NCBI RefSeq assembly: GCF_041260155.1
Contig: NC_091938.1
Location: 13,421,428-13,485,427, forward strand
DNA length: 64,000 nucleotides
Direction: 5' to 3'
DNA from: Ptychodera flava
Lineage: Eukaryota; Hemichordata; Enteropneusta; Ptychoderidae
Positions 833-58,431 of this stretch are shown here, piece after piece. The first letter of the stretch is position 1, and the number at the start of each line of letters is the position of its first letter. Under the pieces are notes generated by a model. The model was not told the DNA's origin. It did no database searches and saw only the letters and a list, made by a program, of their open reading frames with translations. The position numbers and the translations under genes are program-made.

Positions 833-1915
833 TTAGCTCGCATTTGGTATATGTATGTATACCAAAGAGGTTATCATATAAGGTGAATCAGTTCATTTGC
901 GCCATTTGCATGTCTGTATGTATGTATGTATATATGTATCATATGTATGTATGTCCGTCCACGTCAAAAACTCCTAAAGCACAGCACCTACTGTCTTAGT
1001 ATTTGGCATACAGGTGCACCTAGGGGTGGAGATGTGAATTTGTTCAAATGAACTTGTCAGTGTCAAAAATATGCAAATGAGGGGGAAAAAGGAAAAACCC
1101 TTCAAATTGCTAAAACTCTAACCATTGGTCAGATTGGGTTGAAACAATGGCATTCAGGTTCCCTTAGGTATTCTAAATAAGGTGTGTACAAATGGGGGTA
1201 AAATTTGCATGTTTCTATTTTTGGTGTAATTTTTTCAGTCAAAAAATCTTTCTCTGAGACCGCTAGTCTGATTGCTTTTAAAGTTAATATATACATGTTC
1301 CTCAGAATGACCTCAATCAAGTTGATACAAATTGAATTGAAATTTTCATATTTGTAATTTTGGGGCAATTTTCCCAATTTTTGGTCGAAAATTCTTTTAT
1401 CCAAAAACTTCTGATCTGATAGCTTTGATATTTGGTATAAAGGTTCCTAAGGTTGATCAAAATCTGATGTTTTCAAATTTCGATGAAATCTACAATTTTG
1501 TATTTTATGGGCTATTTTTCTCAGATACGGTGAAAAAAATTTTTTCTCACAAATTACTTGTCTGATTGTCTGATTGCTTTTATATTTGGTGTACAGGTTC
1601 CTAAGGTTAATCTCCATATGATACATTGAAATTAGGTTGAAATCAGCAATTTTGTATTTTGGGGCAATTTTTGCCATTTTTAGTTAATAAATTTGTTTCT
1701 TAAAAACTTGTCTGATACATTTAGTATTTGGTAGATATGTTCCTGCAGATGATTTCAGTTAAATATGTTCAAATTATGGTAAAATCTTTAATTACCGTAT
1801 GTATTTTTGCAGCTATTTTTTCCATTTTGATAAGGCTTACCTGAAGTGGCCTATCAAAGATTTCCTCCTTCAGCAACACATGTGTCACAAAAAATTATTC
1901 TTTACATAACACAAA
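833..1915 (-). repeat. Hairpin-CTAA tandem-repeat element, copy 1
   Basis: On the minus strand this element ends in a hairpin followed by CTAA (TTAG on + at 833-836). The hairpin has a perfect 9-bp stem (843-851 with 858-866) and a 6-nt loop. A TGTATG/GTCCGTCC-rich leader follows on the plus strand, then degenerate tandem units of about 120-145 bp (1090-1830) containing a TTTTTGGTCAAAAAAT core. A tail at about 1830-1910 (CTATCAAAGAT, ACATGTGTCACAAA) recurs at 19548-19630 and 20310-20370. Short open frames here are by-products of the repeats. The outer boundary near 1915 is approximate. The Helitron-like interpretation is an inference. Confidence 0.6.
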
Positions 1916-3056
1916 GGAGCATTTTCAGCTGCTAGGTCACTAATTTTAAATTTTCAGAGAAATACCTTCAATTTTGTGTTTTGGTAAAGTTATTTCCTAA
2001 TTATTGACAAAAAAAATACAGAAATACATGTAGTCTGCTGTACAGTATTGATTTGAAATTTGGTTTGTAAATCCCTACAAATGTTCTCATACATGTATTA
2101 CCATGTCAGAATGAGATGAACAATTGCAATATTTTTTTTATTTTACTTTGTTGTTGTTGGTAAAATATATCTTTATCAAAAAACCACATCCAATGCTGGG
2201 TTTGAAATTTAGCATGAAGGTTTCAGTGAGTGATAGTACCATAACTTATTCAGATTGTGTTGATATGAACAATTTGATAAATTTTGAGGAGAGGTTTTCG
2301 TAATTTTGCCGAGTTTATACCTATACAGGAACTTAGAGTACATAATGTAGTGATTCAATTAGTAGGTAAACTGTATTTGGAGTTGTAATGCAGTAAAAAA
2401 TTCACTGGAAAGCAAAGGTGAAGGTGATTTTAGCTGGTTTGGTCTCCAACAAATATAGTCCATAATTTTTTTTCAATATTGAAGAGTATCAAGGTTGTAA
2501 ATAGTCACCTCCTGCCATCTGGCCATGGAGGAAAACAATGTTTACTTTTCCCTGTAGGATTTCTGAGTTAATGGTTGTATCTTGAAATATCTCCATATAT
2601 CTGGTGAAAAGAAAGCTGTGAAAGAACAGAGTTGTTATTTTCTTAATTTGTGGGTGAATTTTATCATTTATCTGTCATCTGGTAGCACCACTTCAGCAAT
2701 CTTCGGATATGACGCTGAAGCTGACACTGAGTAGTGTCGTTTTCAGCGTTAGCTAGAAAGGTCTCCTGAGGATGAGGATGACCATGCAACTTTATGCTCA
2801 TGAGCTGGATGTGGCGTGTCTATCGTGCTACAAGTAGAGTGCAAGGGATGGATTTCAAGAGGAATGGTACTGTTACTCAGGGTTGCTTGTTTACAGCCAT
2901 CCAATAATGTGTCCACAGAATTGTTGGTGCCTATCTGAGATATGACACCATAGTTTTTACATGTAATATGCCGATGCAAGGCAAGGTGTGTCAGGTTGAC
3001 ACTGAATAAATGCAGGTACAATACCCAGCACAGAAACACCATAAACAATCCTTTTT
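1916..3056. other. Non-genic stretch
   Basis: AT-rich sequence continuing repeat-like material. The segment at 2493-2527 (GGTTGTAAATA, then a CTGCCATCTGGC-like run) matches 18533-18570, so the family seen at 833-1915 probably extends this far in degraded form. About 2705-2820 resembles 165-300 in inverted orientation. A 99-codon minus-strand frame (2749-3048) ends in a Ser-rich tail. It has no recognisable domain and I do not call it a gene. Confidence 0.4.
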
Positions 3057-3206
3057 TTAAAGGGGCAATTTTTAATCCCTGGTTCTTGCATGAGTGGTTG
3101 TTGAATTTGACTGTTTATGTGATAAGTCCTTTGTTCTCCTTTGAAAGCTGTGCACAGTCAGTCAGTTTGTTCAGAGATAAAGCTGATAAAAAACCTGCCC
3201 CTTTAA
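3057..3206. mobile_element. Short TTAA-flanked MITE (GGGGC termini)
   Basis: A 150-bp segment bounded by TTAAAGGGGCA at 3057-3067 and its exact inverse TGCCCCTTTAA at 3196-3206. TTAA at both ends fits the target-site duplication of piggyBac-type insertion. It is too short to code for a transposase. A further AAAGGGGCC-type end lies at about 3295, so a second degraded copy may be adjacent. Confidence 0.55.
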
Positions 3207-4494
3207 GATCATAGACTATTAAAAGAGAACTCAAACAGGAAGGTATCTTGCAGAGGTCCACTACCTCAGCGCACATTTGTGCATGATTCTTCTTTAAAGG
3301 GGCCTCACAGAATTAAAACTTACAACAAATGAAAAATTGCTTTTAGGGATTGAATACTTGTGATTACGGCACATATTTAATTTTGCACACTTTTGTAGAT
3401 CAATTTCAGTGTCCATTCATATTCAGTTTTGAGTGTGATATACACTTGATAAAACCAAATGCTGGCTCAAGAAACAGCAGTTTGGACCCAGTGTCAGTGG
3501 AATTTCACTGTATTTCTTGGATCTTTATGTATAAACAGAGCTGAAAGCACAGACACAGGGAGCCCTGCTAGCCACCACTGACTTTGAAAGAACTCTTTTG
3601 TCCAAAGAAACTAAGTATATAGTGAATGCACTGGCACAGTGCTGACTCAAAGAAAGTTTGAGAATTCTTAAATGGAATCAAAAGGTTCTGAAAATATTAA
3701 TTGTGCTGTTTGGGACACACTGCAGGTACACATAGATGTGTATAGCAATGAGAATTATAGATTCTATGATTTTTAAACTGTGATGTGCTTTCTTTTGTCC
3801 ATATTAGTTTTAAATGGTGGAGGAATGTACCTTCATGCCCCTGAAAAGAAGTCTTTTCACTGCCATATAGAACGAACTGGTCACGGACTTCCTGTAGATG
3901 ACCCATGCTTTCATGTACATCACCAATTCATATGTTAAAAATAACATCAAGGTTACAATACCTTTCACCTTTAGAGAAATCCACAGTAGGGGCATTTCTG
4001 TAGATGGTACTCTGAACTTTACTATAGGTTTACAAAAGGGCTCTGTCTGAACAATTTCAACTCTTTGTTAGGGGCATTGACTGAGAAATCCGTTGCTGGT
4101 TTATGTTGAAACCCAAAGCACATTTTCTGTACATGTATAATTTCTCATATTCATATACCAAAGTTGTGTGTATCACTCAAGACATGCATATCAGAAAAAC
4201 AGTGGCACTTGAATCCAATTGAACCAAGCTACATTGTGGCTAATATATTCATGCCAAGAGGGTATGGTTGAATAAACATTCTTTTTGTAATATTCTCTTT
4301 TTGTACGTGGACTTTCGGATAAACTTTTAGAGCTTAGAAAGGAGTGGTCGGCATGTGAAGGTGAAAATTTTTCAGGCAAATATGCCCGATTTGGTCAAAA
4401 CATTTCGATAACAAGTTGTCTGACTTTTTCAAATTTCATTTCTTGCTTCCCAAGGATTACCTCTTCAAAAAGGTGTTTATTGACAGTGTAATTT
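3207..4494. other. Non-genic stretch
   Basis: No gene is supported here. Several short open frames exist on both strands (for example 3350-3544 + and 4191-4379 -), but none shows a recognisable motif or convincing splice signals. Confidence 0.4.
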
Positions 4495-4630
4495 ATTTAT
4501 TTCTCTATTTATTTGGATAACCAAGAGGAGTAAATTTCTAATTACAGGCTCCGCAAAACAGAGAAAATACATAAAATTACACACAAACATACAATTGACG
4601 GAAAACAAGTTACAATGAATATACGAATCA
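4495..4630 (-). mobile_element. Possible LINE 3' tail
   Basis: On the minus strand this segment runs through a GGAGCCTGTAATTAG-containing UTR-like stretch into AAATAAATAGAGAAATAAATAAATT. This is the kind of short A-rich simple repeat that ends many non-LTR retrotransposons. No coding sequence is attached here, but a degraded LINE C-terminal coding fragment lies on the same strand at about 7440-7700. Confidence 0.35.
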
Positions 4631-4806
4631 TGAATGAAAATAATTCATTATACTTGTTTTACAAAGACTAAATCTGTTAAAAATGTTAATGCTGGAGCTT
4701 AAATTTGCATATCACAGTAAATGAATGCCCATACATGCCATGGTTTTGATTGTTGATCTAACAGTAAAGAGACAGTATGGGGCAACTGAATACCCTGTAT
4801 CTGCAC

Positions 4807-5180
4807 TTAAGGTAGTGTACCAGTAGTATGTACCTCAAAAGTGAAAGACTTAAACTTTCGCTCAAACTTTCATCAAGAAATCTTTCAACCATTCTCATTC
4901 AAAATCAAGAATAAAAATCTGGGGTCACCGTGCAAATTTCGGTACTAGGGTATCAAATTACCCAAGATTTACAGATATTGAAATTCAAAATGGCCACCAT
5001 CCCTGTGTAAACTCAATGGGGAAAAATACAATTTTCGATTTCCGAAAATCTATGACGGTGGAAACTTTTTGTGCGCCAGAGCTTTAAAATGAACCACACA
5101 ATTGGTAGTTCAATATAGAATCGATGAAGTTTGAATGCCCGAATATCTGTCCCCAAGGCGCGACGTTCTAGCTACCTGAA
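4807..5180. mobile_element. MITE of the TTAA-GGTAG family, copy 1
   Basis: About 370 bp starting TTAAGGTAGTG and ending GCTACCTGAA, so the termini are inverted GGTAG with TTAA (one side mutated to TGAA) outside. A second copy lies at 62127-62489. The two share long blocks such as AGTGAAAGACTTAAACTTT and AATTCAAAATGGCC. The large element at 36949-40183 has the same GGTAG terminus. No coding capacity. It ends about 90 bp before an ALDH exon. Confidence 0.65.
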
Positions 5181-5266
5181 GAGAACACTGTATATGTAGG
5201 TTTGAACAGTGATACAAAGGGAGGATATTTCATTTTTGTTGTTTTTATACAATTTTATCTTCCCAG

Positions 5267-5371
5267 ATCTTCATCAACAATGAATGGCATGATTCTGTCA
5301 GTGGGAAAACTTTCCCAACTATTAATCCTGCCACTGGGGAAAAGATCTGTGATGTTGCTGAGGGAGATAAG
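5267..5371 (+). CDS. ALDH2-like: ALDH exon a (FINNEW ... VAEGDK)
   Basis: This 105-bp exon has 35 codons and is phase 0 at both ends. It is preceded by a pyrimidine-rich tract ending TTCCCAG and followed by GTAAGTG. It encodes the start of the mature ALDH fold ([17 protein letters not shown], then [16 protein letters not shown]). The size and end residues are those of exon 2 in vertebrate ALDH1A/ALDH2 genes. Confidence 0.9.
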
Positions 5372-8300: not shown

Positions 8301-11300
8301 AAGTTGATAATAAAATACTCTTTGTATAAATGGATATGTTTATTCATAAAATCAAGCACGAAGTTGGACCAAATATATGCCTGCAGGATTAATTATAATT
8401 GTATCATGATTTGTCCCGTCAGATTACAGATCATAACACTGTATGCATAAACAGTCAAGGCACATCTCAGTAAGGGGGGGTTGACTTTTTTACAGAGAAA
8501 AAACTTATATTGACTGATGTGCAATATGTCAACTGTTTGTTCATGTACAAAAATGTTAATTGTGCTATTTGAGCAGTAAGACATTTTGAAAGTCTTCTTT
8601 TTATATGATCTCTGTGGGCAAACTACAACGTGTCTCTTTTAAAATCAGCACAACACATTGTGGTCAACCAGGGTTTCCACCCATATATACCCAACGTTTG
8701 TCCTCAGTGTGTGTCAAGTATGTAGGTCGATCACCCTATCACCTTTGGTGACCCTGCTATTTCATATTGGTATGGAAAAAAACACATGTGCCTATTAATC
8801 AGAATGATAAACTTGCGTGCAGTGGCTTCTCCAGTTGCCAAGAAAGTGGGGAATGCAAGATGTGAACAGCAACAGCTGTGTTATGTTCATCAAAATAATT
8901 GCAAAGAAGGGACGCTGACCAAATTTCTAGCGATAGAGTTGTGTTGGGAAGTGAGCAGAGTGAGACCGTGGGAAATGCCCAGGGGGGGGGGGGGAATGGC
9001 ATCAGCCAATCAGCAGACAGCGTTTTAGTCAGGCTGAAAAAAAAAATCATACTGTCCCAATAACTGACCTACCCTACAATGTATATTTTACCTGTCAACC
9101 CTAAGCTACGTAAACACAGAAGTAAAAAAAGAAAAACCCGTAAAATCACTCGTTCGTTACTTGGCATTTGGTTGTTGCTTTAATGAGGATGTCTTTTATG
9201 TCTTTTTTCCTTTTATGATGCATTTTTCTGGAAATGCCTTTTTTTATGTATGATACATTTTTCTGGAAATGTTATAGCCAGTGTTTGACTGCCCTGAACC
9301 CCTGAAAAATGCATATTTAAAATAAATATTTTGGGGAAAAAAAATCCCTGCCAACCTACCTACCCTATTTTTGAAAACCATGTTATCAGAACAGCACAAT
9401 TTATTTTTTTGGCTTTACCAGGTTTGTCTACAAGTGGAATGATTTGAACAACCATAAATGTGATAATTTATGCCACATCTTGCAGTTTCACTAATGCTTT
9501 CACCTTTAAACTTTCATCGACATCAGCATTCTCCGCCTCTCTAATTATGCTTGGCCCTGCCCTTACGGAAAACCTATGTCCACAGTAGATGAGAGTAGAT
9601 CTACGGACCGTCTGCAGTAGACTTTATGTAGATCTACATGAGGGTTTTGTAGATGAACAGCCACAGCAGTTTGTCTACATGAAGCTTTGTCTACAGATAT
9701 TGTCCACACCAGACATGACTATGTCTACATTTTGCACTAACTTCGTCTACGCTTGATCTACACTGATCTACCATATAATCTAAGGGAGTTTCATCTACAA
9801 AATTCACTTAGGCAAACAAAGACTCATCTACTTCTAATTCAAAAATCACCATCTTGTCTACATTTAATCTAATGTATTGTTTCTTGCTGTATACTATGTC
9901 CAACAATCCAATCTCTTCAAATTCTATGATTGGCAAACTGCAGGCTCCATGCGAGAAGGCATGAGTAAAAGACAAGACATTTTACCTTACATTTGAATAT
10001 ATACTGTACAACAATAGAGAGAAGAAATTAGTGAATTCATTTTCATTTCATCCTAAGGCACTCCTGTTTAACTCGAGAAACACAAATGCAAAATATCACA
10101 GGGATCAAACTACAATTTTGTGGTAAAGTTAAAAATGCAAAGATTATCCAGTAATTAATTTTTGAAAAAGTGACTTTAAAGTGAATCACAATAAAAAGAA
10201 TAAAAAAAATCAATGTTTTCATTGATACTTTCTTCAGATTGGTCAATACAGTAGCATCTAACCACGGGCCGGACACTGATCTAATTCATAAGTTGTTTTT
10301 TTTTAGTTATGTGACTATTACAAAACTTCATAAATATGCAAGTGAGCTATTTGTTAACTGCAACCACAGGGGCTCACAAATGGCTATATAAGTCAATATT
10401 ACAGCGTTTTTCTTTCTTTTTCAATGTTACAAATAAACTAGCTGAGCCTGAAGAGCACAACACTTGTGTAGCTGTCTTTTGTGTAGCTTGTATTGGCATG
10501 TATAGTGCGCCCTCAATAGGGAGTGTGATCATATGTAAATGCGACCTTTGGTTCCGTGACCTCTAGCCATGCCTACTTCCCTCTCCATATGGCCGGCCAT
10601 GTGTACAGACGTCGCTGTGTTTACTGACGTCGCTGTGTTCACCGGGCTCACAAATGGCTATATAAGTCAATATTACAGCGTTTTTCTTTCTTTTTCAATG
10701 TTACAAATAAACTAGCTGAGCCTGAAGAGCACAACACTTGTGTAGCTGTCTTTTGTGTAGCTTGTATTGGCATGTATAGTGCGCCCTCAATAGGGAGTGT
10801 GATCATATGTAAATGCGACCTTTAGTTCCGTGACCTCTAGCCATTCCTACTTCCTGTCCTCGCTATGCTTACTGTACTAATTTAGTACGGTGAACACAGC
10901 GACGTCAGTAAACACAGCGACGTCTGTACGCATGGCCGGCCATATGGAGAGGGAAGTAGGCATGGCTAGAGGTCACGGAACCAAAGGTCGCATTTACATA
11001 TGATCACACTCCCTATTGAGGGCGCACTATACATGCCAATACTAGTCTGGTTCCCTGACCCATTTCCCCAGTAGAGGGCGTGGGGAAATATAGGGTCAGG
11101 TACCGGCTAATGTAAACATGGACGCTATTGGGTTAAAATAAAACAGGCTGTGATTGGATGAAAGTAACACTTGTAACTTTTTCTCATGTTTCTTGGGTTT
11201 TGCACTTTCAGGCTCACTTGACACCAACTTCTTGTTTGTACCACAAAGCCGTGGAGGTAGAAAGAAAGACTTTTTACCTCCATGATTTAGCCACTGTGAT

Positions 11301-14300
11301 TTAGCACACCTCTTGATACTTTTAGAACGTCGACATGATGCCTGGCATTTTTCACGAAATTCGGACACCATTCTATCCATCGAAACCAATCGTCGTTCAC
11401 AGTTCCAACAAAGTTTACTTTCAATTAGCTGTGATATCGCAGCAGTACTTGTGGCGTGTATCGAACGTGCTCTGGTCATGGGGTCACGCAACAGTCGGCG
11501 ATGACCTCAATGACCCTAGCGCGATCGATACACGCCACAAGTACTGATACTGCTGCGATATCACAGCCACCCTTCAATCACCTCCATTTCCCTGTACTTC
11601 TAGATTAATCCTTTCAGTTTATTTTTCCCGTCTCGTGTGCCAATGTTTTTGGTTCGGATACCAGTGTTCGAACATAATTCTGATCCAGTCGAATTTTGAC
11701 CGGCGTTTTCATGGTAGCAGCCATATTATTTGTAGCATGTTCTGTCAGGTGACTAACCTCCGCCATCTTGAACAAAATTCTGTTCAAGATGGCTACCCGG
11801 TACCTGACCCTATATTTCCCCACGCCCTCTACCGGGGAAATGGGTCAGGGAACCAGACTATGCCAATACAAGCTACACAAAAGACAGCTACACAAGTGTT
11901 GTGCTCTTCAGGCTCAGCTAGTTTATTTGTAACATTGAAAACGAAAGAAAAACGCTGTAATATTGACTTATATAGCCATTTGTGAGCCCCTGTGCTGCAA
12001 CTTTATTTCCTCGGCTTCATATCCAACAAACAATCAAACGAACCTGTTTGATATCCCAGCTGCTTTTAATTGTAAAAAATAAAATCAAAACTATCCTCGT
12101 ATAAAACTTTCTGAGTATCATTAAGTCACTGCTGAATCGTGTGAAAATCAGCAGCCACGGCCCTATCTCTCGGTCAACTTACAAATAATTGTATTGACAT
12201 TGTTATCATTGCCACGTAACAGATAAGACTACGTTACAGTGTTATTTTGGCAATGGCATTTCAGTACACATGCATAACACGAGTCAGCTTTAAAATTACC
12301 AGTACTGCTTTAAGTAATTTCTTCACCTGAGCGACGTATTTTCTTGCATTTTCATGAAGAGTTCGCGCATGACTGATCTCCCCACCACCTTTCAGCCTCC
12401 ACCTCTTGCTCTTTTAGAGCAAATGACCTTGTAACTGGCTTCGATTTCCGGGTCAACTGTGAGAGTTGACCTTATGCGCATGCGCAATCAGAAGGCGCCA
12501 TGTTTTCAACGGTTCATCATATCAATGCATATCGGGGAGAGAAGCCAGCCTGCTCACCATTCGTACTTCAACAAATCTTATTTTTCAAGCACATTTTCGT
12601 CATCTGTACACCTTGGAAACAATGTGACATCAATTCTGATATGCATAGAAAGTGTTCCGATCGAGAATTACATCGGGTTGAGACATAGGTTTGCATAGAT
12701 AACTTGACGATGGCAGTGCCTCTACACTGCCAGCTGTACTGGTACAGCGGTAATTGTAATGCAACTTGTAAGGTAGGCCCGTGAGCTTGAGGTAGGCAAG
12801 GTTTGTTGATCGCCTGTTTTAATACCACGACCATATGAATTTGATTGTGTAACATGTAGAATATTTCAGTTCTAAATTTTTTAATAAAGCGTCGTTGAAT
12901 GTACTGAAATGCTTTGTATGCAGTTTATTCTGTTAATCATGTAATGATGTATGTACAGTTGAGAAAGATTTTGAAAAATTTGAGTAGGCCTAAGCATGCA
13001 CAATGTTCTACTCTCTATTTCGACCTGAATACCACTCATGATCGGTCATTGAATGATTGATTTTTCCAGCGTGAGATATCTTATGCAAAGGTCCATCGAT
13101 ACCATGGTGCTCAGTGAAGTTGCCACCAAATTACATCAAGAGGATGTTGTTGTGATATGCAATATTGTGATACTCATCATGAACTGCAGCCCTAGCCTGT
13201 GCTACACCATGACCATTGGTCAATTCTTAAAGTCTAAAAATTGATTGACATGTTAACATACTTACATTTTCATTTTCAACACTTTTGCAAGATCTCCATG
13301 CCTCACTAATTTCTAGTTCTTTGTCTTAGCTACATCTTATACGTAATTTATTCCATCTACATCTTGTCTGCCTTTCATCTACATTTTATCTACTCTCTAA
13401 ACTATGACCTGATGATTAATATGCACAAAAGTAGACGAAGCAATAGATCTACATCTTGTCTACATGTCATCTACCTGAGATCTACATTTCATCTAATTTT
13501 TCATCCACATTTTGTCTACATTTCATCTACTCTCTGAACTATGACCTCATTAGTATGCACAAAAGTAGATGAAGCAGTTCATCTACTGCCCAATTAAAAT
13601 AAAGTCTACTGTAGATCTAATGTGGACTAGATGTAGATCTCAATTTTCCGTAAGGGTGGGGCTTTTAAGTCAGGGTTTGTGCTGTAGTTTAATTGTCTGT
13701 CTTGACAAGTTAGCCAAGTTTGTTGGTGTATATGGTTCTAAAACTATGATTTTAATTCCTTAATTTGGGTATCTTGCACTGATTGGCGGGAACTTTGATA
13801 ACGATGACTTGGTGTACATCTACAAGCGTATATACTGTCCTTTATACACCGATTAACGGTAACTCAAATGGTCAAGTTGTTCAAAATCAGCAGAAATGTC
13901 AATCCACATCACAGTCATGTATTATTATGATTGTTAGTTTGCCTTTATTTAAAGTCGACAAACTGTTCAACCAATGGCTTTTCTCACACTGTGTCAAATA
14001 ATACAAACTTTACTCTATGTACATTAAAAAATAAAAGAAAAAAAAACATTGATAACAGATAACCCATGCTACAACTGTGACACAATTGCTACCAGGTCTA
14101 GCAAAGAAATTGCCCTAAAGCAAGACAAATGAAAATGACCGTGCATTTGTACTGATGTTCCAAGGTCAAGTGCATCGCAGTACAATTTACATTGTGTGGG
14201 ACATGTCAGCTCAGTCAAAATATTAAAGCATTGGAATAGTGCTCTACTGTATTGCAATGAACTTGATCCTCATAGGGTTATATAAAATAAAGAAAACCGT

Positions 14301-17300
14301 TTGATTACGTTGTGATATGCATACCACAAATGCTTAATCACCCCTGTTAAAAGTTACTGTGTAAGTGGGAGACAATGTCACTAAAATTATGTTATTTTCA
14401 AAAGGATATAAAGGTACAATATGTCTTTCATCGTAAATAATATTTTGTAACAAAATGCATGTGTAACCTTTGCCAAAGGCAAAATACAAATTATATTGTG
14501 AGTTGTTTTGCTTTTTAGCTCATATTTGGCATATGTATAAATACCAAAAAGAGCTTATATGGTGAGTCGGTGGTGTCTGTATGTTAGTATGTGCGGATGT
14601 ATGTCCGCCCAACTCAAAAACTCCCAAACCGCCGCACCTACCATCTTAGTATTTGGTGAACAGGTAGACCAAGGGGTTGAGATGTGAATTTGTATTTATA
14701 CTTGCTTATTTTTAACAGGCTGATGTGGACAAGGCAGTTGTTGCGGCTCAAGAGGCATTCCAGTTAGGATCAGCCTGGAGAACTATGGATGCTTCGGATC
14801 GCGGAGTCTTAATCAATAAGCTAGCAGATCTTATGGAAAGAGACATAGATTTATCTTGCTGTAGTGTTTGATATACACACCAACTGTTGAGCCATGAAGT
14901 TGTGAATTAGTGTGCAGAGATCTGTGAGCAAGCTTGCCTGCAGAAATTTTCTTTGGCAACAAATGATATGAATGAAATAATTTAAATGTAAGAAGCCTTC
15001 GTTGGAGACAAATGCCCATGGAATTATTAATTAGGAAGAATAACAAAATTTATTATTTGACGCCAAGAGCAATGTATATCAACATAATAAATGTGTGATC
15101 GGAAATTGCTCTAAAAACGGACTGAACATTACTTGTAATAAATACATATATCCACATTCATGCATACTGTGATGTTAGTTGATGCAAATTCAAGTGAAAA
15201 TAAATGTAAGACATACTTACTTACACTGGTAACTTTTGATGCAGGAGTTGTTACCATGGGCACATGTATATCACAAATAATGTCACACCTTGATGATGTA
15301 TAAATACAATGACATTTGAAGTCCTAGCTTTTTTGAGCTGAGCTCCGGAGCTTACACATGTATGATAGGTGGATGTGTAGCAGCGTCCAGTGTCTGTCAT
15401 CCATCATCCAGACTTCTGCAACCATGCAGCCTTCGGCATCTGTCAACTTTTTACATTCAAAGCTTCTTCTTCAAAACAGCTAGTGCGATTTCTTTATCCC
15501 TTTTCCTGCCGAGCGCCCTTGTCCGTTATTCTCCCAAGTCAGTAGAAAACCGCCCCATAATATGTGCCTGCAAAAGATTGGCTCTCCTGCATGTTATCCT
15601 GCCAGGCATTTTTGCAGAAATCGCCCATTTTCAGGGTAGTTTTAGCCGTACTTATACGTGTTAGACTTCGATAATTTCTACATGCCCGTAGACAGGGGAA
15701 GGAGCTCAAGGGTTGCTGCAGAAAAAAATTGAGGTCACCGGCTTTGTTTGCCCCTGGGAGTGCGTCAATTTATTGCCGTTTCATGTTTATTTTTTCGGAA
15801 ATAAACTCCTTCAGTATTACGTACGTCCGCTAGGCACAAACATCACCTCACTCGTCTGTTAGTCAGAGACCCTGAGGGTCGTGCTAGGGTGCAGCAGCAC
15901 CGTCAAACCTGTCCTGTTTCCCCAGGGTAGGGTCAATTGAATACGTACCTCCAACGACTTGGCAGTGTAGCACAAAAACTACGTTTTTGCCGTTGTATTA
16001 ACGACATGGCTGAGCCATTGAAGCACAGCTTACGTAGTTTTGCCAGCTCAGTTGGGAGTTGGCTTACGAGTGTTTACCGTTCATTACTGACTTAATCGAG
16101 TGGTCCTCAGTCAGGTACGGGTTTGTACCGACATGGCTTGGGCTGCAGCTAACCAGTGATAACCAGTCACTACCCCCAAGTCTTCAGTTCACTTTTGCGA
16201 TGCACGGGTGCAACGCAATATGCTTCCATTGTTCTAGCCATCGACGTGTCCACATGCTGGCAGCCATATTGTACTGCTAGCTGGTTTGCATAACAAAAGC
16301 AGTCCCTGCTAAATGCAGACGGTATCCCCGTACATGTAGCATATTGACCTCATGTGCCCTTTTGAATTCTCTGTACGCAAACAGCGTACGTAGTTACCAA
16401 TGCATCGGCAAGAGGATACGTTTGCCTGCAAACCAGAGCCAGTACTTCGGACGGTGGAATAAATAAAAAATCCAAAGCTACGTCCATTGAATGGCACGGC
16501 CAAGGCAGTGAAGGACGTTGCCTGGCTTGAACTTGCAGAGCTGAAGCCCAGCTTAGTACGTCGGACACCAGTTTGTAATGGTATTTCCGAGTCGTTCATA
16601 TCCGTTCCATGGGAGGAACAAGTCGAGCCGTCCCGTCAAAAATACGTTCTCATTTTCAGTCACGCACAACTGAATAAGTGACTTTCGTCTCGCACCATCG
16701 GCATATCTGCCAAGTCGTTTGCAAGAGGTAGCCTTCTAGATTAGCATTGCCGAGTTGGTCAAGTTCGGCAGCAATCTGTATAGTGCCAGGCAGCCAAGTA
16801 CGTCCAACTCCGCCAGAAAACGTCACCATGCTATCCTGCCAAGTCCGCTAAAAAGCGGTAAAAAAAAACCAGCCCCCCTCGGGTGTGGGGGACTGGCGGA
16901 CAGGTTTCTGCACCTTTCCCTGTCCTTGGACTCCCTGTGAACCCATTTCGAGAGCAAACGCCGTTCCTCGCCCAAAACCTGTCCTCGAACGACCCCTAGC
17001 GTGAGCAAGGGTTTGCTACACGTAGTTCCGTCGACTAGGCAGGAAAGGGGGTACCAAAAAGGAGCCCGATTTCCACCGCCTTAGGAGGATAACGGCCGTG
17101 GCTGCTCAGCTTCTAGCTACACCGAATTTCAAGCGGATTTTCACCGACTTGGCAGGAAAAGGGTTATATTTGCAGTACAGGTACCAGGGACGACCTGAAT
17201 CAGATTTGATGAAATATGCAATTTTTGTATATTAAGGCAATTTTTATCATTTTCGGTCAAAAAATCTTTAAAAATCTTCTTCAAAAGTACTGGTCAGACA

Positions 17301-20300
17301 GCTTGATAGTTTGGATATAGGTCATTTTTAGCTCACATTTGGTATACCAATGTGAGGTTATCGTATAAGCTGAAGTCGGTGGCGTCTGTATATATGTATA
17401 TGTGTGTGTATGTACATGTATGTATGTACCGGTATGTATGTATGTGCGTACGTACAGTATGTCCGTCAACATCAAAAACATGCGAACCGCTGCACATTTC
17501 AGCTTGGTATTTGGTGTGTGAATGCATCCTGGGCTATAGATGGGATTTTGTTTAAATGAAGTCTGCATTGCCAAAATTATGCAAATGAGCTTACAAAATG
17601 TGAAAATGGTCAAGAATTAATATCTCAAGAACCGCTGTTTTGATTGATTTGAAAATTTGTGTGCAAGTACCTTAGGTGAACCTAATACAGTTTTATGAAT
17701 ATTGTGAAGATCTCTTTAATTTTGTATTTTTGCTGAATTTTTTGGTAATTTTTCTCATTTTCAGTAAAAATTATTCTTCTCTGAAACCGCCAGCCCAATC
17801 GCTCTCAAATTTGGGTTAGATCTTTGTGAGGGTGTTACTTTTCTAATTTGTTGAAATTATGACAAAATTGGGAAAATTACTATTTTGGAGCAATTTTGTC
17901 ATTTTTGGTCAAAAAATCTTAAACGGTATTTTCTTTTTAAAACCCCTGGACAGACAGCTTTTATATTTGGTACACAGACGTACAGAGATGACAATAGATA
18001 GATATGTGGAAATTGTCCTGAAATATACAAATTTGTATTTTTAAGACAATATTGTCATTTTTGGTCAAGAAAACTTGTTCTCAAAATTACTTGTTTGATA
18101 GCTTTGTAATTTGGTATAAAAGTCCCGAGGGATGTTATTAGATAAATTTTCTGTTCAAAGCGTTTGGAAACCCCCAAATTTGTATATTTTAGGTAATTTT
18201 CTCAGTTTCTGACCTTAAATTACCTACACCAGCCCAGGATATGTTGTGAGACAGTTTCGAAGGCTGTGAACAAAATTTTGTCATATTTGGTATCAATTTG
18301 TAGGAAAATTTGATCCAGAAAACAAAGCTGAGGTGTATTTTTTCATCGCAGACCAATTTTTGCAACTTTTCTATGTAAGACATACAAGAACTGATGAGAA
18401 ATTTGGATCCAGGATAATTCCAGATGTTGTAATCACCGCCCACAGCGGAAGGCATTTCACTATCTGTAACTAACTTAAGTGCTGTTTACACTAGCATGAT
18501 AACACTCATAGCATTAATTAAAAATTTCCCAAGGTTGTAAATACATTTCCTGTCATCTGGCGTTATGTAATACCAAGGGATGGAACATTTGATATTCAGG
18601 AGGGGGTAGGGTCTAGAAGATTGATGAGGTAGCATTACTTTTTACCAGATCCCTTGTACATTTTTTTACCCACTCCCACCTTTTCTTTTTATCAAGCCTT
18701 CTCTGTCTATTTTTTGTTGTTGACATTTGGTTATGTATTTAGGATCTGCTTATCCCATTGCTATAGAAGTTGATATGCATGTTCCTAAAAATGACCTCCA
18801 GTACCTAAGTTGGAGACCTTATTTGCTTTTGTCATTCTTGTTTTTCCTGGTTTAAAGATTTCTCGAATGGACCAATTCAAACCGAATGTGAGCACACTGT
18901 CCTTGACGGTATTTTTTGATAATGAAATTGTTTGAAATATGCAAATTAGCTCCAAAAAAGGCGTTTTTGGTAAAAAATCTTCTTCTTCATAACCGCTGGT
19001 CAGACAGCTTTGTTATTTGGTATACAGGTCCCTAGGGATAAGCCAACTTAGATTTGTTCAAATTTTGATGAAATATGCAAATCTGTATTTTTAAGGAATT
19101 TTTTGGTCATTTTTGGTCAAAACTTTATTTCATCAAATCGCTCGTCTGACAGCTTTGATATTTGGTATACAGATTCCTACAGATGAACTAAATATGATAT
19201 ATTGAATATATGACAAAATCTGCAATTTTGTATTTTTGGTGCAATTTTTGCCATTTTTGGTCAAAAAATGTGTTACTCAAAAATTACTTGTCTGATGCCT
19301 TTGATATTTGGTATACAGGTTCCTAGGGGTTGTCTTAATGTGATATATTGAAATTTAATGAAATCTTCAATTTTTGTATTTTTGGGTCAATTTTTGCCAT
19401 TTTTGGTCAAAATATTTGTTTCTCAAAAGTTACTCATCTGATAGCTTTGATATTTGGTAGACAGGTTCCGAGGCATTATCTTAATGTTGAAATTATGATG
19501 AAATCATCAATTTTGTATTTTTGCAGCTAATTTTGCCATTTTTGGTCAGGCCATCCTGAAATGAGCTATCAAAGATATCCACCTTCTTCATCAATACATG
19601 TGTCACTAAAAGTTATTCTACATAACACAGCAGACCTCTGTCAACTGTTGGGTCGCTTATTTTTTCAAAACCGCTGGTCAGACAGCTTTAATATTGGTTT
19701 ACAGGTCCTCAGGATGACCTTAGTGAGATAATTTCATACAGTTAGGAAATACTTAATTTTGTATCCATGTCTATAGTAGCTTCAGGGACTTTGGCCCTAT
19801 GTTTTTTCTGGTTGTACTGTGTAGAAATCATTGTCATAATATCAATGTAGAATTTTGCTGCACTGAACAGATAGAAATAACATTCATCATTGTTGGTACC
19901 AATACTACTATTATGTTTGTCATTTTTGGTCAAATGTTTTTCACCCAAACCACCTGTATGGTAGCTTTGATACAGGTTCATAGGGATGATGAAAATATGA
20001 TACATTCAAATTGTAATGAAATCTAAAGTTTTGTACTTTTGGAGCAATTTTTGCCATTTTGGTCAAAAAATTTGTTTCTCAAAAACTACTCGTATGCAAG
20101 TTCCGAGGGATTAATCTTATTGTGATATATTGAAATTATGTTGAAATCTGCAATTTTGTATTTTAGGGACAATTTTTGCCATTTTTGGTCAAAAAAATTG
20201 TTTCTTAAAAAAATACTCATCTGATAGCTGTGATATTTTGTTGACATGTTCTTAGGGATAATCTTAATATGAGATTGTGTATTTTTGCAGCTCTTTTTGC

Positions 20301-23056
20301 CATTTTTTGTCAGGCCATCCTGAAATGAGATGTCAACGAATTGTCTACCTTCATCAGCACATGTGTCACAAATAGTTATATTTTTATTAGTCCCCGCGGA
20401 CGAAGTCCGGCGGGGACTTATAGATTGGGTCCCGTCCGTGTGTCCGTCCTTCCGTCCGTCCGTCATCAACAGTTTCTCAGACACTGCTAAACCAATTTTG
20501 TTCAAACTTGGCACAAAGGCATAGCACTATGACCTACAGATGCACGTCGATTTATTTTGTGATACGATCCAATATGGGCACGAGATGGCCATTTTATTGC
20601 GATTTTTCATGTCTTTGGACCATAACTCAGACATCCTTGAGCACATTCTGCTCAAACTTAGCACAAAGGCATAACACTATGGCTTTCATATCCATGTCAA
20701 ATTATTTCGCGATATGTTTCAACATGGGCGTGTGGCGGCCATTTTGTTGCGATTTTTCATGTCTTTGGACCATAACTCAGACATCCTTGAACAGATTCTG
20801 TTCAAACTTGCCACAAAGGTATAACACTATGGCCTAAATATGCATGTCAAATTATTTTGTGATACAATCCAATATGGCCACGAGGCGGCCATTTTGTTTG
20901 CGATTTTTCGTGTCTTTGAACCATAACTCAGACATCCTTGAACCGATTCTGTTCAAATTTGGCACAAAAGCAAAACATCATGTCCTTCATATGAACACCA
21001 ATTTACTTCATGATATGATCCAATATGGCCGACAGGCGGCCATTTTTTTGCGATTTTTTCATGTCTTTGAACCATAACTCAAACATCCTTGAACCGATTT
21101 GGTTCAAACTTGGCACAAAGGCAAAGCACAATGGCATACATATGCATGTATCAATTAACCTTGCGATAGGATCCAATATGGCTGCAGAACTGCCATTTTG
21201 TTGGAATTTTGCATGTCTTTGAATCGTAATTCAAAGGTCATTACACCCATTTTGTCCAAACTTGGCACAAAGATCAAGCACTATGGCATACATGTACATG
21301 TCAATTTACTTCGTGACATGTTCCAATATGGCTGCCAGATTGTCATTTTTTTCCAATATTGCTGTCAGATGGTCATTTTTGGATTTTTTCATGTCTTTGA
21401 GGCTTAATCATATGCAAATATTCTTTAACCAATGTTGTTGAGACTTGGTACAAAGATAAAGTACTATGGCATACATATGCATGTCTACTAATTTTGTGCT
21501 ATGATCCATATGGCCAATAGACAGCCATTTGATTAAAATTTTGGTGTGATTTTTTTATGTCTTTGAAACATACACATAGGTCACTGTCCCTTGATGGACT
21601 GATTTTGTTCAAACGTGATACGAAGATAAAATACTATGGCTGCATTCTTGTGCACATTAATTTGTTTCATTACATGATCCGAAATGGCTGATTACAACAA
21701 CATACCCGATCCCATACCATTTCAAAAATTCCACCAAACCTTGTGTATAATATGTGCCATCATGACACTGGAGGCAGTAAGGGCATCGTTGTGTGTGATG
21801 TAATCAAAAGTTCCTTGAGTGGTCATTACCGGCAGAGATGAGTCATTTATTGAACGTTCCTCAGATTACTTTATTATGCAAGTCACAGGCCTGATGTACC
21901 CGTTGCATCAATGTCATTCCACAGCTACCTAGACCACAGCTACCTAGACACCAAAGATTATAACAAAATGGACAAGCGGGGACTGTGTCATCAACGATGA
22001 CTTGTAAGACAACTGAGCTCTGTCGGCCATTGGATTGCTTGTAATGTTCAATTTCTTTGGTTCAGGTCAAAGTCTAATATAACAATTGAGTTTCCAGGAT
22101 GAAACAAGTTTGTGAAAATATCAGCACTATGATTTTACTCGCTAGTATTTACATGAAATTTTTACTTTCAACGCTCAAATTTCAAAGACAATTACACCAG
22201 TAATGTTCCACAGTTTGGTTCAGAAGTGGCTTAAGGCATCTCTGTCATATGTCATTTATGCTTTATACACTTGCTCTTTTTTATAGATCGAAAGATTAGT
22301 ATACTGTGATATCTAGTAAGTTTTGTATGCTCAAACTGTGTGGTTATTGTAGCGTAAATATTTAGCAGAAATTCGTTTATTGCAATAAATTTCATGCAGT
22401 ACTTTTTATCAGAATATAAACACTTCAGATTATGACAGAGGAAAACAATATTGTTTTATTGTTTTTTTTTCAGAGTCTGGAAACACTCGATAATGGTAAA
22501 CCATTTCATGTTGCCCATGCTGCTGATCTAAGCCTGTCAATTAAATGTCTGAGGTAAGATGAAATGTGCCATAGTTTGAAGATACAAAAGAGAATGAAAT
22601 CAATACCTTTTTTCACAAAGTTGAATTTTGTGTAAATCTTGTTTGTGCTCATGACATCACCAAAGATACGAGACATTCAAGTTCAAAACGAGCCCAAGTT
22701 CAGAATAGTTATCAATAGCTGAATGTAATCTTTAGTATTTTAAGAATAAATGTTCCCATATTCATGCAATTGATTTTCATGTACAAGATGATAAATCTAT
22801 TTGATTTTGTGAAAGGTGCTTTGATATTGCGACTGTACGAAAACCTGTCGAAAACCTATGTAACTGATGTAACAACAGACTTATATGGTTTGTGTTGAGT
22901 GTATGGTTTGTATTGTATGCTTACTGGTGAGTACATTATTGAGAGCAAAAAGACAAGATTGGGACACACATTTTCTTCTTTCAATAATTGTTTGTTTTCT
23001 TTACAGGTATTACGCTGGTTGGACTGATAAGATTCACGGCAAAACAATTCCAATTG
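5267..23056 (+). CDS. ALDH2-like: ALDH2-like aldehyde dehydrogenase, N-terminal exons only
   Basis: The gene spans four + strand exons: 5267-5371, 14719-14860, 22474-22553 and 23007-23056. ALDH1/ALDH2 enzymes oxidise aldehydes (acetaldehyde, retinal) with NAD+ as tetramers, ALDH2 in mitochondria and ALDH1A in cytosol. The peptides [49 protein letters not shown] and [17 protein letters not shown] are family hallmarks of the N-terminal NAD-binding region and resemble ALDH2 more than ALDH1A1. Exon lengths of 105 bp, 141 bp (with one extra base here) and 80+50=130 bp match the conserved layout, the last being split by an additional intron at LR/YY. The start exon is not seen. All exons after TIPID, including those for the Glu and Cys catalytic residues, are missing before the gap at 25692. 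It may be a truncated copy, or a real gene broken by misassembly. Confidence 0.85.
5552..7268. mobile_element. TTAA-flanked inverted-repeat transposon, about 1.7 kb
   Basis: The termini are TTAAAGGAACAAA at 5552 and, inverted, TTAAAAGGACAAA ending at 7268. Imperfect inverted arms of about 190-210 bp continue inward; both contain GTTTGATACGAGATAC, ATGTTGAAAGA and GGTCCCTCTATCACCGGTC. The interior (about 5760-7050) shows no transposase-like frame. The open frame 5621-5947 lies mostly inside the left arm and is not a gene. It sits in an ALDH intron. Confidence 0.65.
7440..7700 (-). pseudogene. LINE reverse-transcriptase C-terminal remnant
   Basis: The minus strand around 7690-7500 translates to a stretch containing [16 protein letters not shown], followed by TERQQLM. 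This matches the E-x-HFL-x-C-x-x-(F/Y)-x-x-R signature that closes the reverse transcriptase ORF of many CR1/RTE/L1-type LINEs. Upstream and downstream frames are broken by stops, so this is a fossil. The exact clade cannot be told. Confidence 0.45.
7701..9553. other. ALDH intron sequence
   Basis: No gene supported. It contains a poly-G run of about 13 bases near 8981-8993 and AT-rich low-complexity tracts near 9225-9345. Open frames at 7789-8046 (-), 8393-8584 (-) and 8786-9050 (both strands) have no recognisable motifs. Confidence 0.4.
11043..11860. mobile_element. Foldback-type transposon with 9-bp TSD
   Basis: An 818-bp element with near-perfect inverted termini of about 64 bp starting TAGTCTGGTTCCCTGACCC. 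TGCCAATAC (11034-11042 and 11861-11869) flanks both sides; the same sequence occurs once in the uninterrupted arm of the host element, which proves the insertion and gives a 9-bp duplication. Nine base pairs and long inverted repeats suit Mutator-like or foldback elements. A second inverted pair lies at the centre (11429-11463 with 11525-11566). No transposase is encoded. Confidence 0.8.
11763..11792. repeat. Perfect 12-bp stem-loop
   Basis: CCATCTTGAACA (11763-11774) pairs exactly with TGTTCAAGATGG (11781-11792) across a 6-nt loop. It lies just inside the right terminal repeat of the foldback element, and the left arm lacks it. Confidence 0.7.
12002..13320. other. Interior of the 4.1-kb element
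   Basis: Unique-looking sequence between the nested transposons and the right TCTAC array. Small open frames at 12459-12855 and 13053-13244 carry no recognisable motif. Confidence 0.35.
13663..14514. other. ALDH intron sequence
   Basis: AT-rich sequence without a supported gene or repeat boundary. Confidence 0.35.
14515..14700 (-). repeat. Hairpin-CTAA element fragment, copy 2
   Basis: TTAG at 14515-14518 (CTAA on minus) is followed by a TTTGG ... ACCAAA inverted pair and by the same leader as copy 1 (GTATGTCCGCCCAACTCAAAAACTCC, in pieces). Only the leader and the first part of a repeat unit remain. The next ALDH exon starts 19 bases later, so this copy abuts the splice acceptor. Confidence 0.55.
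14719..14860 (+). CDS. ALDH2-like: ALDH exon b (ADVDKA ... LADLMERD), one base out of frame
   Basis: The exon is preceded by TTTTTAACAG and encodes a continuation of the ALDH fold ([36 protein letters not shown]). Family members have a 141-bp exon ending in a Leu-Ala codon pair just before a GT donor. Here the frame stays open after ERD but shifts: the four bases at about 14844-14847 are one too many, after which Ile-Tyr-Leu-Ala codons lead directly to GTAGTG at 14861. The exon is therefore 142 bp and would frameshift the message. A sequencing indel or a pseudogene lesion are both possible. Confidence 0.82.
14861..17327. other. ALDH intron with GC-richer segment
   Basis: About 15340-17170 is visibly richer in GC and in ACGT/TACGT words than its surroundings. 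It repeats variants of GACTTGGCAGGA on both strands (for example 15956, 16834 inverted, 17149). A perfect 12-bp palindrome AGCTCCGGAGCT lies near 15342. Open frames (15362-15664, 16059-16280, 16309-16599) have no recognisable domains. From about 17200 the tandem-repeat family begins. Confidence 0.4.
17328..20386 (-). repeat. Hairpin-CTAA tandem-repeat element, copy 3 (long)
   Basis: On minus this ends in a near-perfect 25-bp palindrome (17332-17356) and CTAA (17328-17331). A GTATGTATGT/GTCCGTC leader follows on plus, then roughly 15-20 degenerate units of about 130-145 bp. The recurring words are TTTTTGGTCAAAAAAT, CTGATAGCTTTGATATTTGGTATACAGG (in parts) and AATCTGCAATTTTGTATTTTTGGG. The tail segment seen in copy 1 appears at 19548-19630 and again at 20310-20386. 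Apparent small proteins arise from repeat units and are not genes. Confidence 0.65.
20387..21984 (-). repeat. Hairpin-CTAA tandem-repeat element, GC-hairpin family
   Basis: TTAG at 20387-20390 leads into a strong GC hairpin, AGTCCCCGCGGAC ... GTCCGGCGGGGACT (20389-20418), then CCGTCCGT-rich leader sequence. About eight degenerate units of about 150 bp follow, each with AAACTTGGCACAAAGGC, a CCAATATGG segment and TCATGTCTTTG. Unit starts are near 20503, 20655, 20803, 20955, 21107, 21259, 21441 and 21614. The far end carries GCGGGGACT (21976-21984), the inverse of the first nine bases. Because units are near multiples of three, they create repeated open frames (20508-20837 and others) that look like proteins but are not. 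Confidence 0.7.
21985..22473. other. ALDH intron sequence
   Basis: AT-rich intron ending in a polypyrimidine tract (T-run at 22460-22470) and CAG. Nothing else seen. Confidence 0.5.
22474..22553 (+). CDS. ALDH2-like: ALDH exon c ([11 protein letters not shown] ... KCL)
   Basis: An 80-bp exon between TTTTTTTTTCAG and GTAAGA. It starts in phase 0 and ends with two bases of the next codon. It encodes [20 protein letters not shown] and SIKCL; the ETLDNGKP motif is typical of ALDH2/ALDH1B. In vertebrates this exon and the next form one 130-bp exon. Confidence 0.88.
23007..23056 (+). CDS. ALDH2-like: ALDH exon d ([17 protein letters not shown])
   Basis: A 50-bp exon between TTTCTTTACAG and GTATGG. 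Its first base completes the Arg codon begun in the previous exon. It encodes [16 protein letters not shown] and the first base of the following Asp codon, the usual ALDH1/2 junction. The expected next exon (the cofactor-binding PWNFP region) is not found in the 2.6 kb before the gap. Confidence 0.88.
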
Positions 23057-23945
23057 GTATGGATCATATTTGAATTTTGACTACATGTATTTGTGACTTC
23101 CTAGTTTTAGCTCAAAACATGAAATCTTTTAATTCCAGAAGTGATAGTCTGTAATATGGATTGTGATTACTTATGAAATCTGACATGTGCATAAAAGTAA
23201 TGATCGAATTACAGACAAAGGTAGCCTTTCGATTAGTTTTCTGTTCCATGAATTTTGAAAATTCTGAGAATGAATCATCAACTCACATAATAATCTTCAT
23301 GACAAAATGAGTGTGCAAGCCAAACTGTAAACACAGCTCAAAGCAGCATCAGATCAATAAGGTGAATTTTCTTAAAACTTTGAGTGAGTTTATACAAATT
23401 AAATGTGGACCAAGATATAAGGGAGTGTCTTTTTATGGCTGGCTTAGTATGAGTCTCATCCTGGTCGTAAAGCAACCGATAGTGGGAATTTCAAGTTAAC
23501 TTTAAAATGTTTCTGGCTAGATGCAGTGATTTCTGTTGTAGCATGTATACTTTGTACTTCTTAGGGACAGTCTCAGATTGTTGCATAAGTTCAAGAAACG
23601 AAATTCCTTGGTTTATATCAAAACCCCCTCCCCCTAAATGAAAGTTCAAATGAGAGTACAATGTAGCATTTTGCTATTTAGCTACTGAAGAATATCTTTC
23701 CCCTGACCACATTACATCGTCAAGTAATCGATCAAATTTGAGTACTAACCGACATAAGTGTATCGCGAACGGGTTGGAAATACTAAGTTACAACAAAATT
23801 TGCTCATACGAGTGTGCAGTTTTTGTTAATTTTTACACACAATGTAAAGAGAACTTGTAACAAAAAAATAAAAGAGCAAAAGTGAAGTTCACTAATTGAA
23901 TGGAGGTCAAACCCCCTCCCCCTGTAAACAAATAAATTTTGCTTT
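23057..23945. other. Sequence after last visible ALDH exon
   Basis: No ALDH exon or other gene is recognisable here on either strand. AT-rich, with two CCCCCTCCCCC-type runs near 23625 and 23915. Confidence 0.5.
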
Positions 23946-24903
23946 TTAGCTCCTCTGTCAGCGACGCGGAGCTTATCAAATAGGTTGATTATCCGTCGTC
24001 GTCCGGCGTCCGGCGTCATCCGTCAACAATTGCCTTCTCCTCTGAAACCACGAGTCCAATTGCTTTGAAATTTTATATGCAGTTCACTTGGGGTGACCTC
24101 ATTTCAGTTTGTTCAAATCATGGTGAAATTTGCATATTTGTATTTTTGGGGCATTTTTTAGTGTTTTTGGTAAAAAAATCTTCTTCTCTGAAACCGCTCG
24201 TCCGATTGCTTTGAAATTTGATATGCAGTTTGCTTAGGGTGACTTAAATCAGATTTCTTCAAATGGTAGTGAAATTTGCATATTTGTATTTTAAAGACAA
24301 TTTTTGTCATTTTTGGTGAAAAAATCTTTAAAAATCTTCTTCTTCAATACTACTGGTCAGATAGCTTTTATATTTGGTACATATGTCCCTAGGGATGACC
24401 TATTTCAGATTTGTTCAAATTGTACAGAAATATGCAAATTTGCATTTTTAAGGCAATTTTTGCCGTTTTGGTCAAAAAATGTATTTCTCAAAAAGTACTG
24501 GTCTGATAGTTTTGAAATTTGGTATATACAGGTTTCTATAGATGAACTAAGTAATATATATTGAATTTCTGATGAAATCTGTAATTTTGTATTTTTGGGG
24601 CAATTTTTGCCATTTTTGGTCAAAAAATGTGTATTTCCAAAACTACTCATCTGATAGCTTTGAAATTTGGTATAGAGGTTTCTACAGATGAACTAAATGA
24701 TATTTATGGAAATAATGATGAAATCTGCAATTTTGTAATTTTGGGGCAATTTTTGCCATTTTTGGTCAAAAAATGTGTTTCTCATAAAGTACTGGTCTGA
24801 TAGCTTTGAAATTGGTTACAGGTTTCTACAGATAAGCTTAGTATATATTATTGAATTTCTGATGAAATCTGTAATTTTGTATTTTTTGGGGCAATTTTTG
24901 CCA
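23946..24903 (-). repeat. Hairpin-CTAA tandem-repeat element, copy 4
   Basis: TTAG at 23946-23949, then the inverted pair AGCTCC (23948-23953) and GGAGCT (23968-23973), then a GTCGTCCGGCGTCCGGCGTC leader. Units of about 130-140 bp like those of copy 3 follow (TTTTTGGTCAAAAAATCTTCTTC, CTGATAGCTTTGAAATTTGG) until the poly-T tract. This head differs in sequence from copies 1-3 but has the same plan. Confidence 0.62.
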
Positions 24904-25691
<788 letters not shown>

Positions 25692-25791
25692 NNNNNNNNN
25701 NNNNNNNNNNNNNNNNNNNNNNNNNNNNNNNNNNNNNNNNNNNNNNNNNNNNNNNNNNNNNNNNNNNNNNNNNNNNNNNNNNNNNNNNNNN
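25692..25791. other. Assembly gap (100 N)
   Basis: Exactly 100 Ns, the usual placeholder for a gap of unknown size. The missing ALDH exons and the terminal exons of the MyRIP-like gene could lie here, or the two sides may not be true neighbours. Confidence 0.95.
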
Positions 25792-33600: not shown

Positions 33601-33965
33601 GGAGATGTTGGTCCTGCCCGGGGGCGCCCTCAAGAGTTACCCATGTGTAGTCAGTTCTACGGGGAGGCCGGTTTCCAGCAGTGTAGGATTCCCATGGTTG
33701 TGGTATCGGCTGAAATGAAGGGAACGGGAGGCGGATAAATTTGGTGAAGGAGAGGGAAACCAGCTTTTACACAAGGAAAACCAAAGGAAACGAGGTCTTG
33801 AGGGAGCCCCCTAGACAGGACCCTGCAAATGCCGGGCTGCATAAAATGCAAAGGGTCACGTGGACCCTCCCTGCTTTCGGGGGTCGGGCGGGTTGGGTTT
33901 ACATGAAATCGGATGGAGAGAGAAACTAAGGCTGTATTCCTACATATATACCGACGCAGGTGGAC

Positions 33966-33996
<31 letters not shown>

Positions 33997-34982: not shown

Positions 34983-35017
<35 letters not shown>

Positions 35018-58383: not shown

Positions 58384-58431
<48 letters not shown>

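Follow-up and report, generated by a model that had tools for sequence, protein, structure and literature searches.

The window, a stretch of 64,000 nucleotides from the hemichordate Ptychodera flava (contig NC_091938.1, positions 13,421,428 to 13,485,427), holds several tandem-repeat elements that end in a hairpin next to CTAA, and we asked to what kind of mobile element they belong and in which direction they read. The first-pass annotation placed five such ends on the minus strand, at 833, 14515, 17328, 20387 and 23946, and all five are there; the sixth copy that it listed on the other strand (E44896) is there too, and a seventh terminus, at 15329 (E15338), had been missed. Counting all termini, the window most likely contains seven copies or fragments of HINEs. 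We consider it highly probable that they are non-autonomous Helentrons of the HINE or 'pearl' type, their left ends being of three or more kinds. They are new members of a kind already known from oysters and other animals, in which non-autonomous Helentrons carry satellite-like arrays. The earlier proposal of a non-autonomous group of the Helitron superfamily with tandem arrays therefore named the superfamily correctly, and the arrays were confirmed by TRF and profile search. Left ends, microsatellites, arrays, two right ends and one empty-site comparison were seen directly in the window.

One terminus, reading GAGCTAAAA outwards and TTTTAGCTC inwards, recurs at 833, 14515, 17328 and 23946 and on the other strand at 44896; the terminus at 20387 has a different sequence and the same plan. 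On both strands of the whole window, TTTTAGCTC/GAGCTAAAA occurs seven times against 0.75 expected (200 mononucleotide shuffles), five times at termini (831, 14513, 17326, 23944 and 44890) and twice elsewhere (23105 and 56256). In leave-one-out profile searches with E833, E14515, E17328 and E44896, the three members kept in the profile found the fourth each time: E833 with an E value of 8.4e-21 (830-1007), E14515 with 1.7e-20 (14512-14658), E17328 in two pieces with 1.3e-12 and 2.2e-10 (17325-17427 and 17427-17516) and E44896 with 4.9e-6 (44897-44781), the best background match in this search having an E value of 0.007. Because these four of the seven termini are homologous, they are, judged by their sequence, one family (HINE family 1), which does not agree with the earlier view that the plan is conserved more than the bases. 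In a seven-way alignment, E23946, E15338 and E20387 share little with the rest besides the T-run, an AG start and a GTC-rich leader; AGCTCC-type palindromes stand in the termini of E23946 and E15338, and AGTCCCCGC in that of E20387.

A hairpin had been claimed for each end. Inverted arms are visible in six of the seven left ends, but the fold differs or is weak in E15338, E23946, E14515 and E44896. DNA folding gave z below -2 in five of the seven termini (E833, E15338, E17328, E20387 and E23946); the terminal hairpin was the minimum-energy fold in E833, E17328 and E20387, but not in E15338 and E23946. E14515 had the terminal hairpin as its minimum-energy fold with a z of only -0.99, and in the decayed E44896 (z +0.33) the terminal hairpin is absent. 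TTTTTAGCTC was unmatched in literature text alongside molluscs, which does not prove that it is absent there, because the places for such sequences are supplements and Repbase. Searches of viral_contigs, a viral collection silent on animals, with exact patterns from both ends of E20387, from the left end of family 1 and from the array gave 0 loci, and a pattern from the E20387 left end gave 0 loci in genome_contigs, a prokaryote collection equally silent on animals. Similar ends presumably occur among bivalve repeats.

The polarity of these termini decides how they are to be read. In the passages on HINE structure in PMC7492417 and PMC4067079, the left end carries a subTIR, an IR and often a GTCY/GTCC microsatellite, the right end carries a subTIR and a palindrome, the central repeats keep a fixed orientation, and the target is T-rich and not duplicated. 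The left flank of Cg_HINE is given in PMC7492417, in its description of the flanks, as subTIR, complementary IR, microsatellite (GTCY, GTCC or GTCK in several) and array. In the window, an element would read from its left end as a T-run, a subterminal repeat with its complement following closely (the hairpin), a microsatellite of the GTCC or ATGT type and a satellite-like array. Since published HINEs have on their left a hairpin beside a T-run, leading through a GTCC/ATGT microsatellite into an array, the strand in the first-pass annotation is most likely reversed: each 'CTAA' terminus is most likely an element's left end, so that, in our analysis, the elements would lie on the plus strand (44896 on the minus strand).

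The first-pass annotation had instead taken the elements for canonical non-autonomous Helitrons of the minus strand that end 3' in a hairpin and CTAA and sit between an A and a T. This reading, which we regard as improbable, draws on CTAA with a hairpin at six of the seven termini and on the T after CTAA at one of them, at 20387. However, E15338 has no CTAA, and the base after CTAA on that strand is A at the other five of six, as had been reported, so that the A/T target rule is most likely wrong here. In a canonical Helitron 3' end, as outlined in PMC4067079, the palindrome stops about 11 bp short of CTRR, whereas the stems in the window reach up to or into CTAA. According to the same outline, canonical Helitrons belong to the same superfamily and presumably replicate by rolling circle, and it is in the A|T target and the hairpin spacing that the window elements depart from them. 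Taken together with the HINE-like left-end anatomy and the far ends described below, the stem position suggests that identifying CTAA as a Helitron 3' CTRR end is most likely wrong. A Helentron left end read backwards can mimic a hairpin with a CTAA-like end, a trap for anyone who calls Helitrons by the rule of hairpin plus CTRR.

The interiors of the elements are consistent with HINEs as well. Between the flanks lies a microsatellite and, in six of the seven elements, a satellite-like array in fixed orientation. Tandem units had been claimed for all five ends first listed; they were found for 833, 17328, 20387 and 23946, but neither TRF nor the profile search found a unit in 14515. TRF delimited arrays of 146-156 bp at 18964-19548 and 24034-24908 and of 150 bp at 20490-21332. 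A model of the 146-bp unit made from the units at 24034-24908, which therefore matches 24034-24906 by construction, located plus-strand units at 971-1827, 17166-17324, 17622-18204 and 18975-20305, minus-strand units at 44289-44695 and stray units at 2176-2279 and 18746-18800, some single rows of this search being weak (E 0.0033). The 146-bp repeat is common to five of the seven elements, and its orientation to the terminus is constant in all five. The 150-bp unit of E20387 matched no other unit among the matches listed in a self-comparison of the window (at least 110 bits). The arrays are diverged, with about 66-80% identity, and the folds of some hairpins do not exceed those of shuffles, both of which would suit satellite arrays that have decayed, bear hairpins at their edges by chance and were never mobile elements. 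Homologous left modules at four places and on two strands already contradict that explanation, and the constant unit orientation and an insertion with a paralogous empty site speak against it as well, making it extremely unlikely.

If HINE anatomy is read on the plus strand, the far side should carry an inverted arm: the element would end in the left arm repeated in inverted form, then a short palindrome, then T-rich DNA. Such an inverted arm copy with a palindrome was found in two of the seven elements. E20387 has the right subTIR GCGGGGACT (21976-21984) and, two bases on, the palindrome GTCATCAACGATGAC (21987-22001); E17328 has ACCGAATGTGAGC (18881-18893) and, two bases on, an imperfect palindrome (18896-18910) followed by six T's (18912-18917). 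The arms match at 9/9 positions in E20387 and at 12/13 in E17328. Shuffled arms did as well in 5 of 4000 trials over 2 kb for the former and in 2 of 2000 over 1.6 kb for the latter, counts that flatter the right subTIRs because the arm words were picked after the matches had been seen. The first inverted-match search scored E17328 at 11 (next 10) and E20387 at 9 (next 7). On folding, the right palindrome of E20387 had a z of -1.35, with 20 of 200 shuffles as good, and the imperfect one of E17328 a z of 0.14, no better than shuffles.

Among the remaining elements, no right end was found for E833, whose best candidate (3454-3466; two mismatches, next best five) has no palindrome directly after it; none was located for E15338, and E14515 and E23946 are truncated. 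The best inverted match of E44896 falls inside its array (44370; two mismatches, 15 of 1000 shuffles), and its supposed right end gained no support from an inverted arm match with four mismatches, which 728 of 1000 shuffles reached. At 44234-44267, 22 of 34 positions are like the right end of E17328, second in the window after E17328 itself, with a background of up to 21.

Inverted arm copies at far ends, with a palindrome, argue against canonical Helitrons and are as in HINEs. Inverted arms at both ends of E20387 and E17328 would also be expected of MITE-like DNA transposons that enclose satellite arrays, depend on a cut-and-paste transposase and have the subTIRs as their inverted ends, and pearl elements were formerly so classed, as noted in the part of PMC7492417 on their classification. 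But the two ends are unlike in structure, with hairpin and microsatellite on the left and a palindrome on the right, and the best joins of E20387, given below, need no target duplication, so we hold this explanation to be very unlikely.

We compared E20387 with an empty site, since it lies in a repeat that has an uninterrupted paralogue within the window. The tail that forms its left flank recurs at 19560-19660 and 1850-1960, and these two copies are alike beyond the break point. At the point where the left-flank similarity ends, 22005-22040 and 19623-19658 have 26 of 36 positions in common, which none of 1500 random window segments equalled (maximum 23), the comparison being of one element with a diverged paralogue. 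By gapped local alignment, the right flank scored 22 against copy 2 (shuffle maximum 23) and 18 against copy 3 (28), neither beyond shuffles. We scored 540 joins against copy 2, and 31 reached 34 or more. The best, 20386/22005 and 20387/22006 (36), set the left boundary at TTAG itself, and the next, 20379-20383/22000-22001 (35), at the T-run. The strict Helitron join, 20386/22001, which makes E20387 a TC..CTAA element (20387-22000), scores 33, which leaves a 5' TC conceivable, but G, not A, precedes that TC. The TC that the first-pass annotation expected at the other end is thus seen in a lower-scoring join, which starts TCATC, while the best joins start CAAG or ACAAG; in E17328, TC stands just outside the A-run on that strand, a point for the Helitron reading.

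By sequence comparison, the joins of E20387 fit T-rich insertion without target duplication, as in Helentrons, with limits uncertain by some 8 bp. The join limits alone do not separate Helentron from Helitron. The flanks of E17328 fall in a single array unit, of which about 20 bp are missing between them, and this site is not clean.

As non-autonomous Helentrons, the elements would obtain a Rep/helicase/endonuclease from an autonomous Helentron elsewhere in the genome. Rolling-circle replication would copy the element, which would insert at T-rich sites without target duplication; array length may be altered by slippage or recombination, and the arrays would travel with the element. The Rep/helicase element sought in the window did not appear: Pfam scans of nine ORFs plus one exon and of 36 further ORFs, which together cover 45 of the window's 61 ORFs with at least 100 codons, matched no Helitron or Rep/helicase family, the 16 left out being six across a poly-T run, eight overlapping large coding exons at 41-44 kb and two in a TCTG repeat. 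The scan of 36 ORFs gave three weak single matches to unrelated families (E 0.004-0.006), and HxH-like words are many in the window's frames and uninformative. The transposon Pfam matches in the window belong to a DIRS-like retroelement at 29377-36520 on the minus strand, with Phage_integrase (1.1e-9), ALOG (3.2e-18), a CCHC knuckle and weaker matches to reverse transcriptase, RNase H and Dam that lie below the curated cut-offs. Its 108-bp direct repeats (29587-29694 and 36413-36520) share 100% identity, suggesting that the copy is young and has split direct repeats.

E833 (family 1, plus strand, 830-2279) comprises a T-run (830-834), a left hairpin to about 869, an ATGT microsatellite, an array (971-1827), the tail at about 1850-1960 shared with 19560-19660 and the stray unit at 2176-2279. 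E14515 (14512-14703, plus strand) is a left-end fragment of family 1, about 150-190 bp long; the profile match covers 14512-14658, and likeness to E833 reaches, by eye, about 14703. Some 15 bp beyond this truncated left end lies the acceptor of an aldehyde-dehydrogenase exon (14719-14853, plus strand). This Aldedh exon and a FYVE_2 domain, together with the gene structure, agree with an animal host. E23946 (family 2, plus strand, 23942-24908) has an AGCTCC..GGAGCT left end, a GTC-rich leader and the 146-bp array at 24034-24906, and its right end is lost in a poly-T run and gap. This tract (24904-25791), a nearly pure poly-T run of 788 bp followed by 100 N, is probably an artefact of assembly and would conceal where E23946 ends. 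The decayed copy had been given as 44470-44896 in the opposite direction; it exists on the minus strand as a family 1 member, but it begins at 44898 and its units extend down to 44289 (44289-44695), and with the doubtful right-end remnant at 44234-44267 it occupies 44234-44898.

The remaining three elements lie close together on the plus strand. E15338 begins at 15329-15497 with a T-run (15329-15334), the palindrome AGCTCCGGAGCT (15341-15352), a GTCC-like leader and the start of an array, which is broken by a 1,666-bp insert (15498-17163), continues at 17164-17324 and is broken again by E17328. The insert is non-autonomous, with inverted ends CCCTTTTCCTGCC and TTAT, not TTAA, on either side, and we take it to be piggyBac-like from its end motif. 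When it is skipped, a single alignment to the E23946 array, with a score of 143, carries the array on from about 15459 as far as the left flank of E17328. E17328 (family 1, 17325-18917), with both ends found, has a T-run at 17325-17329, a left hairpin at 17332-17356, a microsatellite and an array at 17622-18204. Beyond it, a 146-bp array with two tail copies (about 19560-19660 and 20290-20380) extends over 18963-20380, is probably the continuation of E15338 and hosts the insertion of E20387 (family 3, 20381-22004, both limits uncertain by some 8 bp), which has the hairpin AGTCCCCGC..GCGGGGACT at 20389-20418, a GTCC microsatellite and its own 150-bp array at about 20476-21691. Most simply, E15338 would run through the piggyBac-like insert, E17328, the arrays at 18963-20380 and E20387, with two HINEs and one cut-and-paste element nested in it; no right end of E15338 was found in the window.

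E17328 thus lies within an array and E20387 within the tail of one. On this basis we raise a speculative and rather doubtful reading, that HINEs in this genome insert preferentially, and with matching orientation, into T-rich arrays of other HINEs, that the 146-bp repeat is common to families with different left ends, and that nesting and exchange build compound satellites, an element family seeding its own arrays. The nested copies of the same orientation are a small example of how rolling-circle elements may spread and compound satellite-like repeats, a link already described for oysters.

Cg_HINE of Crassostrea gigas, in the features that PMC7492417 details, resembles the window elements in its left subTIR and IR, often with a GTCC-type microsatellite, its right subTIR and palindrome, its fixed-orientation satellite-like array, its T-rich target without duplication and its groups combining flanks and repeats differently. 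The oyster unit is predominantly 160-180 bp in the account of PMC8268682, compared with 146-150 bp in the window, and the likeness is one of architecture. The sections of PMC4067079 on HINE/DINE-1 and Helentrons likewise list subTIRs, a left IR (DINE-1), a 3' palindrome, a microsatellite and terminal T's, and report no target modification found there. In the mite HINEs of those sections the subTIRs lie 38-60 bp from the 3' end, compared with about 20-25 bp in the window, where the right modules are shorter. Pearl of C. virginica, with short arrays of about 160-bp central repeats, MgE of Mytilus and DTC84 of Donax are comparable in architecture by the account in PMC7492417.

Two further repeats lie in the window. 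Direct and inverted repeats of 97-99% identity occupy 10365-11994, including the inverted pair 10365-10499/11860-11994. At 58388-58732, a TC run and a long TCTG-type repeat adjoin a FYVE_2 exon (58749-59069, minus strand).
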